NCBI GenBank assembly: GCA_017473705.1
Contig: JAFUJQ010000029.1
Coordinates: 150,054 to 214,053, forward strand
From: Bacteroidales bacterium
Lineage (GTDB): Bacteria; Bacteroidota; Bacteroidia; Bacteroidales; UBA932
Length of the DNA stretch: 64,000 bases
Direction: 5' to 3'
The position numbers and the translations under genes are program-made. Below the pieces are notes generated by a model. The model was not told the DNA's origin, did no database searches, and was given only the letters and a program-made list of their open reading frames with translations. The stretch's first letter is position 1. The number at the start of each line of letters is the position of its first letter. Below, piece by piece: positions 41,207-63,858 of this stretch.

Positions 41207-41944
41207 TTGAGTAGAAAAGGCGAAAATAATGCAGGAATCCTGATCACCGTGATATTCCATCTCACGGTGATTATTGTCTTGCTCCTCTACCAGATCGACG
41301 CTACGGTCAGGAGGGAGGAGACTTTCGTCATAGACTTCTCGAAGCAGGAAGAGATTGAGAGGCAGATCCAGGAGATGGAGGAGCTGGAGAAGGAATTATC
41401 AAAGATGGAAGCCATAAGGCAGAGACTTGAAGAGAAGATTGCCGGCACTACGACACCTGAAGTCAGGAATATAGCTGTTGACAGGGGTGGATACCTCAAA
41501 GATGACAGGGGGACAGATGCAGAGCAGCTCTACAAGGATGCCGAAAGACTTGCGCAAGACCTGAAGAACGGCAAGAGCAATGCCATCGAAGAGGACGCAC
41601 GAGGAGAGACTGTCGACCTCGGTGGCGGAGGCAAGCAGGACAGCAAGTCTGATAAGGTATACAGCGGTCCGTCTGTTCTATCATACACATTGGACGGCCG
41701 CAAGGCCAGCAAGCTGCCGATTCCGGCATACAGATGCTATGCTGGCGGCGAGGTGACTGTGATAATCGTGGTGAATCCGCAGGGTATGGTGGTGGATGCC
41801 AGGGTTATGGAGGATGTTTCATCCGGTGATCAGTGCCTGAGGAATTTCGCGGTAAGGGCGGCGAGGCTGTCACGATTCTCGCAGTCTTCTACGGCGCCGG
41901 CTCGACAGACCGGAGAAATAGTCTATAGATTCATAGCACAGTAA
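41207..41944 (+). CDS. TonB-family energy transducer
   Basis: A 245-residue protein: a transmembrane helix (about 10-27, ILITVIFHLTVIIVLLLY), a charged coiled coil (about 44-86), a linker, and a C-terminal TonB-type domain (about 170-245) with GEVTVIIVVNPQGMVVDARV and an Arg/Ser/Phe C-terminal strand. The only start that keeps the membrane helix is a TTG at 41207, 2 nt after the udk stop; no in-frame ATG precedes the helix. It is not next to the exbBD operon (4 kb away), but would be its logical partner. Confidence 0.82.
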   Translation: MSRKGENNAGILITVIFHLTVIIVLLLYQIDATVRREETFVIDFSKQEEIERQIQEMEELEKELSKMEAIRQRLEEKIAGTTTPEVRNIAVDRGGYLKDDRGTDAEQLYKDAERLAQDLKNGKSNAIEEDARGETVDLGGGGKQDSKSDKVYSGPSVLSYTLDGRKASKLPIPAYRCYAGGEVTVIIVVNPQGMVVDARVMEDVSSGDQCLRNFAVRAARLSRFSQSSTAPARQTGEIVYRFIAQ

Positions 41945-41956
41945 AATCTGTTTTAC

Positions 41957-42053
41957 ATCCCATAGGGTTATAAAAACAATCCCTGTCGCTCCTTTCGTCG
42001 CTTGTTCCCTCTGCGGCCAGAGGGGTAGCACGGTTTTTATAACCCTATGGGAT
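41957..42053. repeat. long palindromic element, copy 1 (intergenic)
   Basis: Perfect 21-bp inverted arms (41957-41977 and 42033-42053; the left arm begins ATCCCATAGGG) surround a 55-nt GC-rich core. The core contains its own stem CCCTCTG-CGGC-CAGAGGG and ends in GGGTAGCACG directly against the right arm. The core's last 26 nt are nearly identical to those of the element at 63459-63570, whose arms are entirely different. There is no T-run, so it is not an obvious terminator although it follows the TonB-like gene. Confidence 0.8.
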
Positions 42054-42153
42054 TGCGTGGGACAATGTGTGTGAATCTATAGGAGGAAGAAACGCAGGTG
42101 CCGAGGGTGGAAGAAAGCCTGGCGCATAACTATCTATGTATCAGCCAAATACG

Positions 42154-42189
42154 AAAACCTCGTGCCGACTTTGGGGAGCACGAGGTTTT
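42154..42189. terminator. bidirectional terminator-like palindrome
   Basis: Perfect 12-bp arms AAAACCTCGTGC (42154-42165) and GCACGAGGTTTT (42178-42189) around a 12-nt loop, with an A-run and T-run at the two ends, between two convergent genes. It is preceded by CCTGGCGCA (from 42117). The same left arm, prefix and CTTT-GGG loop recur at 63805-63858. The remainder of 41945-42226 holds no gene that I can see. Confidence 0.7.
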
Positions 42190-62878: not shown

Positions 62879-63802
62879 TTGGAAGCATTGATATTAGGTC
62901 CGGAGTCGGCACCGCTCACCAGAAGCATCGACGACTATCCGGAAGGGATAATAATCCCGATAGACAAGCCATACAGGTGGACCTCGGCGGACGTGATCAG
63001 AAAGGTCAAGTTCGCCGCGATCCGTCATTTCGGCAAGAAGAACCTCAAGGTGGGACATGCCGGCACGCTGGATCCGTTGGCCACTGGCGTGCTGCTGGTG
63101 TGCATCGGCAAGGCGACGAAGCTTGCGGAGGAGCTGCAGTCTCATGACAAGGAATATGTGGCCGGCATCACTTTCGGAGCCACCACACCGTCGTACGACC
63201 TGGAGAAGGAGATCGACAGGTTCTTCCCGCATGAACATATAACAGCAGAGGCTGTGGCTGAGGCACTTCCGGCATTCATCGGAGAGCAGGACCAGATCGC
63301 TCCCCTCTTCTCTGCCAAGTCGGTAGACGGAGTGCGTGCCTATGAGCTGGCGCGCAAGCTATATAAGTCAGACGGATCCCTGGACGAAGCAGCCCGCGAG
63401 CTGATCAGGGTGTCGCGCATCAACATCACGGAACTGGAAATTTTGGCATTCTATGGAAGCTGTCGTAACAGCACTATTCAGGACAACCCCTCCCACTTCG
63501 CGTTGCTCGTGGGCCCCACCCCCTGCGGCCAGGGGGGTAGCACGGTCCTGAATAGTGCTGTTACGACAGCATCAAGCAGGATCAATGTCACAGACAATTC
63601 CGCATTGGGACTGCCTCGGGCCGTGGTCAGGATGGCCTGCAGCAAGGGCACTTACGTGCGTGCCTTCGCGCGCGACCTCGGCGAGGCACTGGGCTCAGGA
63701 GCCCACCTCGACTCGCTCCAACGCAGCCGCAGCGGCATCTTCCGCGTAGAAAACGCCCTGACCGTCGACCAGACCCTCACCCTGCTGTCAAAACCCCAAT
63801 AA
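62879..63802 (+). CDS. truB: tRNA pseudouridine-55 synthase with palindromic element inserted in frame
   Basis: TruB makes pseudouridine 55 in the T-loop of tRNAs. The catalytic Asp65 is in GHAGTLDPLATGVL; SCKGTY-type region VRMACSKGTYVRAFARDLG is at the C-terminal end of the fold. The protein is 307 aa, about 60 longer than usual. Residues about 194-231 are encoded by a long palindromic element (63459-63570) lying between two conserved strands (ELEILAFY and LPRAVVRMACSKG). The frame stays open through it. The start is a TTG at 62879; no in-frame ATG precedes the catalytic motif. Activity with the insert is likely but untested. Confidence 0.88.
   Translation: MEALILGPESAPLTRSIDDYPEGIIIPIDKPYRWTSADVIRKVKFAAIRHFGKKNLKVGHAGTLDPLATGVLLVCIGKATKLAEELQSHDKEYVAGITFGATTPSYDLEKEIDRFFPHEHITAEAVAEALPAFIGEQDQIAPLFSAKSVDGVRAYELARKLYKSDGSLDEAARELIRVSRINITELEILAFYGSCRNSTIQDNPSHFALLVGPTPCGQGGSTVLNSAVTTASSRINVTDNSALGLPRAVVRMACSKGTYVRAFARDLGEALGSGAHLDSLQRSRSGIFRVENALTVDQTLTLLSKPQ
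63459..63570. repeat. long palindromic element, copy 2 (inside truB)
   Basis: Perfect 26-bp arms (63459-63484 and 63545-63570; the left arm begins GCTGTCGTAACAGC) surround a 60-nt core. The core has stems CCCAC/GTGGG and CCCCCTG-CGGC-CAGGGGG and ends GGGTAGCACG directly against the right arm, as in copy 1 (41957-42053). The arms are unrelated to those of copy 1. Both left arms end in AC followed by AA, and both right arms begin with GT. Confidence 0.85.
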
Positions 63803-63804
63803 AC

Positions 63805-63858
63805 CCTGGCGCACAACACCCTGCAAACCAACAACTTACAAAAACCTCGTGCTCCCTT
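63805..63858 (+). repeat. truncated terminator-type repeat after truB
   Basis: CCTGGCGCA...AAAACCTCGTGC (63841-63852) then TCCCTTTCGGGAG aligns with 42117-42177, including the AAAACCTCGTGC arm. The matching right arm GCACGAGGTTTT expected next is absent and the sequence switches to ACCGCTGAAAAAG, suggesting an insertion at this point. Confidence 0.55.

Follow-up and report, generated by a model that had tools for sequence, protein, structure and literature searches.

The window analysed here, a 64-kb stretch of a Bacteroidales genome, carries two copies of a palindromic element. One, of 112 bp, lies inside truB, where it spans approximately 37 codons and leaves the reading frame open throughout; the other, of 97 bp, is intergenic and lies approximately 21 kb upstream (table 1). 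The arms of the truB copy match perfectly over 26 bp, 60 nt apart (29 nt at 97% as the search tool extends them), and those of the intergenic copy over 21 bp (100%), 55 nt apart; the two pairs are the first and third among nine inverted repeats listed with arms up to 150 nt apart. The core sequence CTGCGGCCAGRGGGGTAGCA has two exact matches in the window and, because shuffled sequences would be expected to yield 0.01 matches even at three mismatches, the common 3′ part of the cores is not a chance likeness. RNA folding gave −71.6 kcal/mol (z −8.5) for positions 63455–63575 and −52.0 kcal/mol (z −8.0) for 41950–42060, in each case equalled by none of 200 shuffles. The folds of copies L001 and L005 (z −1.65 and −0.72) had most of the left arm outside the folded span and do not inform on the whole element. 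A sequence-only reading of this DNA had proposed that the two elements share one build and a near-identical 3′ core, and both proposals are confirmed.

Table 1. The two element copies and adjoining features in the window (positions 5′ to 3′; position 1 is the first nucleotide of the window).
Feature	Position	Strand	Remarks
ORF upstream of intergenic copy	41207..41944	+	stops 12 nt short of element
Intergenic copy, left arm	41957..41977	+	from inverted-repeat listing
Intergenic copy, core, 55 nt	41978..42032	+	not a multiple of 3; from core comparison
Intergenic copy, conserved 22-mer CTGCGGCCAGAGGGGTAGCACG	42011..42032	+	T-A variant of covarying pair; from core pattern and alignment
Intergenic copy, right arm	42033..42053	+	left arm inverted, perfect match
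truB (tRNA pseudouridine-55 synthase) ORF	62879..63802	+	open across element; TIGR00431, 174.7 bits, cut-off 151.45
truB copy, left arm	63459..63484	+	from inverted-repeat listing; weak likeness to native truB of element-free relative G317
truB copy, core, 60 nt	63485..63544	+	two inner hairpins and conserved 3′ 22-mer
truB copy, inner hairpin 1 (CCCAC..GTGGG)	63492..63513	+	sequence variable, covarying among copies
truB copy, inner hairpin 2 (CCCCCTG CGGC CAGGGGG)	63519..63536	+	almost no variation
truB copy, conserved 22-mer CTGCGGCCAGGGGGGTAGCACG	63523..63544	+	used in core pattern searches
truB copy, right arm	63545..63570	+	left arm inverted, perfect match

The stretch from FSAK to GTYVRA is 119 residues long in the window TruB and 102 and 98 residues in two relatives without the element (G317 and G288, respectively). 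TruB was modelled with AlphaFold from the window protein and 18 of the 20 relatives prepared. Confidence in the model is low (mean pLDDT 65); residues 169–211 fall below pLDDT 50 and overlap the insert (approx. 167–204), which is placed between strands at 150–165 and 220–227. Not every TruB orthologue has such an insert; the site is a variable loop, in which several relatives free of the element have other sequence, of varying length. For the intergenic copy there is no clean empty site: the upstream gene was matched in four of eight relatives (approx. 69%) and the spacer could not be aligned. Downstream of this copy lies a terminator-like hairpin, AAAACCTCGTGC..GCACGAGGTTTT, at positions 42154–42189, and a stretch related to AAAACCTCGTGC occurs near 63840, behind truB.

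The core pattern gave seven matches in the genome of origin at up to three mismatches, against none for a reversed-pattern control, and all seven have arms of 21–26 bp with at most one mismatch. Among 299 genomes of the same family, 15 were positive at up to three mismatches, of which nine are real as judged by arms; the other six lack arms, look like chance core matches and were rejected. Scanning named genomes returned 107 stretches; all 80 titles listed are Bacteroidales metagenome bins, and in many of them the title names goat, sheep, buffalo, yak or deer gut samples. Of 200 genomes of the same genus, 17 were positive for the element under a covariance model (R1; E 1e-7, strict filters); among 295 sampled genomes of the order (E 1e-5, strict filters), the genome of origin was the only one. 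On this last result, from a sample with few genomes of the same bacterial family, we dropped the idea of a wide spread across the order. A viral origin was also dropped, as viral contigs held no exact 22-mer core.

In all, 108 distinct copies were collected from related Bacteroidales genomes, leaving out nine loci (L011, L012, L014, L019, L020, L021, L025, L184 and L202) and four copies at locus edges (L104, L105, L117 and L128); near-identical records may persist among them, such as L073 and L118, which have the same arms. Clear arms (score ≥12, mean 25 bp) are present in 82 copies, of which 39 are perfect, 21 have one mismatch and 22 have two to five. The remaining 26 have weak arms by score; 13 of these are every copy from another genus (g12), whose arms are disrupted by an inner mismatch or indel, and several of the others are truncated. 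The core search thus bears out the family proposed in the sequence-only reading, and its members carry arms in the majority of cases. A second subfamily in the genome of origin (G000), with the core end TTCACRAGGCCACGGGCGGCC, has eight matches of the same build (L345–L348 and L350; also L349, L351 and L352), five of them with paired arms of 21–24 bp that have 0–2 mismatches and differ between copies. Two pairs of copies from different places in one genome, L010/L029 (G011) and L008/L022 (G049), have arms in common over 15–30 nt, unlike the rest, and are possible recent duplications.

The anatomy of the element was derived from an alignment of 70 of the 108 copies. All were picked because their cores are short and distinct, and 63 of them also because their arms are scored. 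The usual core is 51–60 nt long and holds two inner hairpins between the paired arms. In the outer arms (10 nt per side), 96.6% of cells are paired, a percentage biased upward because 63 of the 70 copies were picked for scored arms, and all 10 pairs have two-sided changes. Inner hairpin 1 (helix 2) is paired in 85.1% of cells, with two-sided changes in five of five pairs; inner hairpin 2 (helix 3) is paired in 99.2% and has a single covarying pair (C-G in 46 of 70 copies, T-A in 22). Covariation of the whole structure is 0.489, compared with 0.158 for shuffled alignments (none of 500 as high) and at most 0.142 with slid partners. The first arm bases follow a loose consensus, GTYYY and then CC at positions 11–12, while the 3′ part of the core is almost invariant among the copies found, the search patterns having required that part. 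In a longer core, of 90–99 nt, a further hairpin separates the two inner ones. This long form, of the ..CTGCTCGCTG..CGCTCACGACC type, occurs in two genera (L034, L035, L054, L056, L074 and L132, and the g12 copies L022, L023, L028, L031 and L032). Columns 13, 48 and 59 of alignment A1 covary, as C-C-G in 58 of 82 copies and T-T-A in 21; columns 48 and 59 pair, and column 13 runs parallel to 59 in the pattern of a pyrimidine triple strand, although two subfamilies by descent explain this joint variation as well. The T-T-A type makes up 15 of 23 copies unassigned to a gene and six of 59 coding copies, five of the six in aroK.

Sixty-nine copies were placed in eight housekeeping genes: hutI (14), lpxB (13), an M20 peptidase gene (10), aroE (9), miaA (9), truB (6), aroK (5) and tilS (3). 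When one protein of each was checked for family membership, TruB, HutI, TilS and MiaA scored above the curated cut-off; for LpxB, AroE, AroK and the M20 peptidase the expected family was the best match but fell below the cut-off (several queries are partial, and the insert breaks the match). Three of the eight hosts modify tRNA (truB, tilS and miaA) and two belong to the shikimate pathway (aroE and aroK). The core reads in the sense direction in 34 copies and antisense in 35, and the frame is open in either orientation: sense copies encode NNPSH..GPSPCGQGGSTV and antisense copies RATPLAAGGG.., with aroE using another phase. Outside aroK, every one of the 54 scored-arm coding copies has a core length divisible by three, a rate biased upward because an open frame across the element helped to decide whether a copy was assigned to a gene; the five aroK cores all leave a remainder of two. 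Among unassigned copies with scored arms, 14 of 23 have such a length, and two of these 23 (L007 and L073) do sit in genes. The insertion sites look like variable loops, and the encoded peptide is probably a tolerated disordered loop. The hutI loop also contains other palindromic repeat-like stretches, with or without the element (L272 in G319, L279 in G321, L088 and L268); those of G319, of the GTCATTCTGA.. type, and those in the second hutI of G321 are unrelated repeats. We read this loop as a putative general landing pad for palindromic stretches.

Left arms in different genes have a mean identity of 45% over 22 nt, the shared inner consensus included; the claim that arms differ between copies yet remain paired is borne out. 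Change at shared sites was followed in disjoint closest pairs, in which each copy was used once, flank identity was at least 75% and both arms were scored (n = 25, 75–96%). One genome per species was used for these comparisons across relatives, and pairs retain some common ancestry beyond the disjoint choice. Fifteen pairs have alignable arms, with 38 compensated, 11 one-sided and two other differences. The seven with flank identity above 86% have two compensated and nine one-sided differences, and the eight below it have 36 compensated, two one-sided and two other; young differences are therefore mostly one-sided and old ones mostly compensated, which means that a single mismatch, once it appears, is resolved before long. 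The arms of the other 10 pairs are unalignable, and each copy is still paired within itself. When the unalignable pairs are included and differences are counted at each position, the pairs below 86% number 18 and have 147 compensated, 11 one-sided and 11 other differences. Among the hutI copies, L080 has two right-arm mismatches that are absent from its relative L106, with an identical left arm. The disjoint pairs and the arm pairing in the alignment show arm homogenization, a published mark of template switching; the balance is weaker in a larger, overlapping set of 26 same-gene pairs (56 compensated, 30 one-sided and nine other).

Cores lie in opposite orientations in 10 of the 25 disjoint pairs, and in six of the 10 the arms can be aligned. 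Of the six, three align over at least 25 nt (L041/L071, L037/L137 and L084/L125) and three over only the 13 nt beside the core (L015/L026, L066/L138 and L034/L131), where identity is inflated because the arm consensus adjoins the core. Under a stricter arm criterion, with the threshold taken from between-gene pairs, 10 of the 26 overlapping pairs are flipped. Sense and antisense copies in lpxB lie some codons apart, so three of the ten flips among the disjoint pairs may be separate insertions. One of the best cases is hutI L037/L137, in which the core is reversed while the 110 nt to either side align ungapped; the arms belong to this alignment and differ by five compensated changes. The hutI pair L103/L106 is gapless over 60 nt including the arms, again with a reversed core. 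Both pairs carry a second mark of template switching, inversion of the spacer with the arms retained. The M20 pair L060/L065 is ungapped over 110 nt, with arms less alike near the core and below the stricter threshold, and in aroK L005/L043 the inner hairpin is an exact reverse complement (loop TTC/GAA), a loop inversion that counts towards the same mark. Both orientations at one site were seen between species only.

Direct support for a host origin of one arm comes from hutI, where the left arm of L040, over its outer 18 nt, matches the empty site of G288 (L273) at 16 positions, continuous with the aligned flank. The outer 18 nt of the right arm match at 10, within the range of 8–13 given by 90 outer arm ends of other genes. 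Between the host-like parts lies TTCAAAAC-core-GTTTTGAA, whose short stem we take to be borne by the element; past it, the right arm repeats the host sequence in inverted orientation, with a single mismatch. This is the one clean site for an inverted copy of neighbouring sequence, and the signal is weaker elsewhere. The aroE left arm encodes W-L-x-E-V, and the same residues are present in element-free G317; aroE and lpxB, though divergent, are supportive of a native arm as in hutI. The truB left arm has a placement score of 17/24 against G317, with an ambiguous end-to-end alignment. A native arm always on the 5′ side of the gene, as in aroE, lpxB and hutI L040, was considered and dropped because M20 L075 speaks against it: compared with the empty M20 gene of the genome of origin, the other arm matches (11/16), which suggests that this arm is the native one. 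There is no clear target site duplication at hutI L040 and a possible partial one at M20 L075. At the position of the outer arms of L070, lpxB of G327 carries an inverted repeat that may be a pre-existing hairpin or the trace of a deletion. The aroE of G344 (L229) was rejected as an empty site, having kept an in-frame left arm and approximately 12 nt of core, and looks like a deletion of an antisense copy. L007, in the same gene as L210 and L313, is a copy with a mutated core and was excluded from the empty-site comparison.

The explanation we favour, and regard as probable, is that this is a dispersed palindromic element, protein-coding and akin to the Rickettsia palindromic elements, and that template switching rebuilds its arms, partly from host DNA. 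It is proposed because arm homogenization, spacer inversion and an inverted flank copy are all present. The arms would not be inherited terminal repeats. The element would start from a short stem of its own (approx. 8–12 bp, GTTTTGAA-like), with arms lengthened and repeatedly re-matched as the DNA polymerase switches template: the nascent strand would fold back, take the adjacent arm or flanking host DNA as a template for inverted copying, and return to the original template. Host flank could in this way be turned into one arm and mismatches repaired, and a switch bracketing the spacer would leave the core inverted. The core would sit in loops of housekeeping enzymes, survivors being those that keep the frame open, and new protein stretches may arise via such inserts. 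Template switching has been described as causing arm homogenization and spacer inversion in coding DNA, including yeast genes (PMC8604942, in excerpt), and a role in the origin and repair of hairpins has been proposed for it (PMC8794818, in excerpt). Weighing against the favoured explanation, arms are weak in 26 of the 108 copies and a native arm is clear at one site; in the excerpted yeast account, inverted spacers change 2–5 bp (PMC8604942), compared with spacers of 51–60 nt here. The arm-base consensus means that pure host copying is insufficient and that identities over short arms are inflated. Template switching also leaves the near-constant 3′ core unaccounted for, a part that the search patterns required. 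A stronger version, in which only the core is inherited, arms are remade at each site from the host gene and the core flips in place with no fixed ends, is put forward tentatively, as somewhat less than an even bet.

The sequence-only reading had offered two accounts of the arms, one flank copied in inverted orientation or arms that co-evolve to keep a hairpin. The first has direct support at hutI L040 against G288 and weak to moderate support elsewhere. The two are probably one process, template switching, at two times, because the same sites show inversion of the whole core, which neither predicts alone. Beyond that reading, the present analysis adds the eight recurrent hosts, both orientations, the inversion, the second subfamily and the decayed or lost copies.

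Other explanations, which are not mutually exclusive, were weighed against the same observations. An active transposable element might re-insert at a few loops, with an inverted target duplication forming the arms and fresh insertions producing the flips. The arms and orientation of the hutI, lpxB and aroE copies do differ between G000 and its relative G321, and within g12 genomes long arms are common to copies at different places; nevertheless, flipped pairs with alignable arms and gapless on both sides, together with the excess of compensated changes in the 15 disjoint alignable pairs, favour change in place, and re-insertion is unlikely. Slightly more doubtful is a hairpin kept by selection, in which a stem in mRNA or single-stranded DNA is functional and compensating mutations are selected. 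This would predict neither inversion of the whole core nor the inverted host-flank copy; some relatives seem to have lost the element or to retain it in decayed form (truB of G305 and G327, aroE of G344), and no Rfam family was matched at gathering score within the window. It does accommodate the strong covariation of the arms and inner hairpin 1, the nearly fixed hairpin 2, the nearly invariant 3′ core among the copies found and the maintenance of arms in copies outside the eight genes.

A site-specific invertase that flips cores to give phase-variable protein loops would fit the near balance of orientations and the common occurrence of opposite orientations at one site, and in the excerpted description of gut-bacterial invertons (PMC11892184) the DNA between inverted repeats turns round, as here. 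However, the present arms have no common sequence for recognition past the loose inner consensus, and all eight recurrent hosts are housekeeping enzymes; we consider an invertase very improbable. Removal or skipping of the element at the level of RNA or the ribosome, by splicing or byp-like bypassing, has still less to recommend it: a closed-stem insert in genes recalls the yeast mitochondrial palindromes bypassed in translation (PMC6649704, in excerpt), but here the frame is open and scored-arm coding cores outside aroK are multiples of three, with the bias from open-frame recognition given above. An assembly artefact can be practically dismissed, since identical sites and frames are repeated across the sheep, goat, buffalo, yak and deer records, even though the copy-bearing named records are metagenome bins (80 of 107 titles listed) and the carrier genomes of the covariance-model search are in at least 30 contigs.

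A MITE has terminal inverted repeats common to its copies, which the present family lacks, as had been foreseen from the window. The GTAG REP/BIMEs, in the excerpted source (PMC3733652), are likewise short dispersed stem-loops, at times within genes, with an unpaired GTAG at the end; here GTAG is internal, between the inner hairpin and the arm (GTAG, then CACG, then the outer arm, with no unpaired GTAG at the element end), and the outer arms are longer and not fixed in sequence. The likeness to Rickettsia palindromic elements (RPEs) raised in the sequence-only reading is sustained: RPEs are described as palindromic repeats of approximately 150 bp, in frame inside unrelated protein genes (PMC10969869, in excerpt), and the present family is, by description, a dispersed palindrome in frame in eight gene families. 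RPEs are said to encode a conserved peptide (PMC10969869), whereas the present core is read both ways with no conserved peptide, and RPE repeat identity decays with time (PMC6649704, in excerpt), whereas here the arms differ between copies and are kept matched. Nematomorpha mitochondrial genes contain perfect coding inverted repeats that are gained and lost, possibly kept matched by conversion or template switching, according to the excerpted account (PMC6649704); in those genes, conserved regions of the protein are encoded by both arms, and the excerpt makes no mention of a shared core that is dispersed, while here one arm is extra peptide at the clean site and the core is dispersed over genes. 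Template-switch products, as excerpted from PMC8604942 and PMC8794818, combine arm homogenization, inversion of the loop or spacer and inverted copies of neighbouring sequence, the same features as here, but in those excerpts they concern short spacers and hairpins of the rRNA type rather than a dispersed family with spacers of 51–60 nt. Our literature search, covering titles and abstract openings of open-licence papers, found no description of the present family.

In this one dispersed family, arms that stay matched, an arm derived from the host and the inversion of a coding spacer of 51–60 nt occur together, at sites shared by many related genomes. It offers a natural series from which to read how fast and in which direction template switching proceeds, and what it contributes to new protein segments. 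If the stronger version is true, the element would supply housekeeping enzymes with either of two in-frame loop peptides and renew its own hairpin, living off a mutational process and not an end-recognizing transposase.
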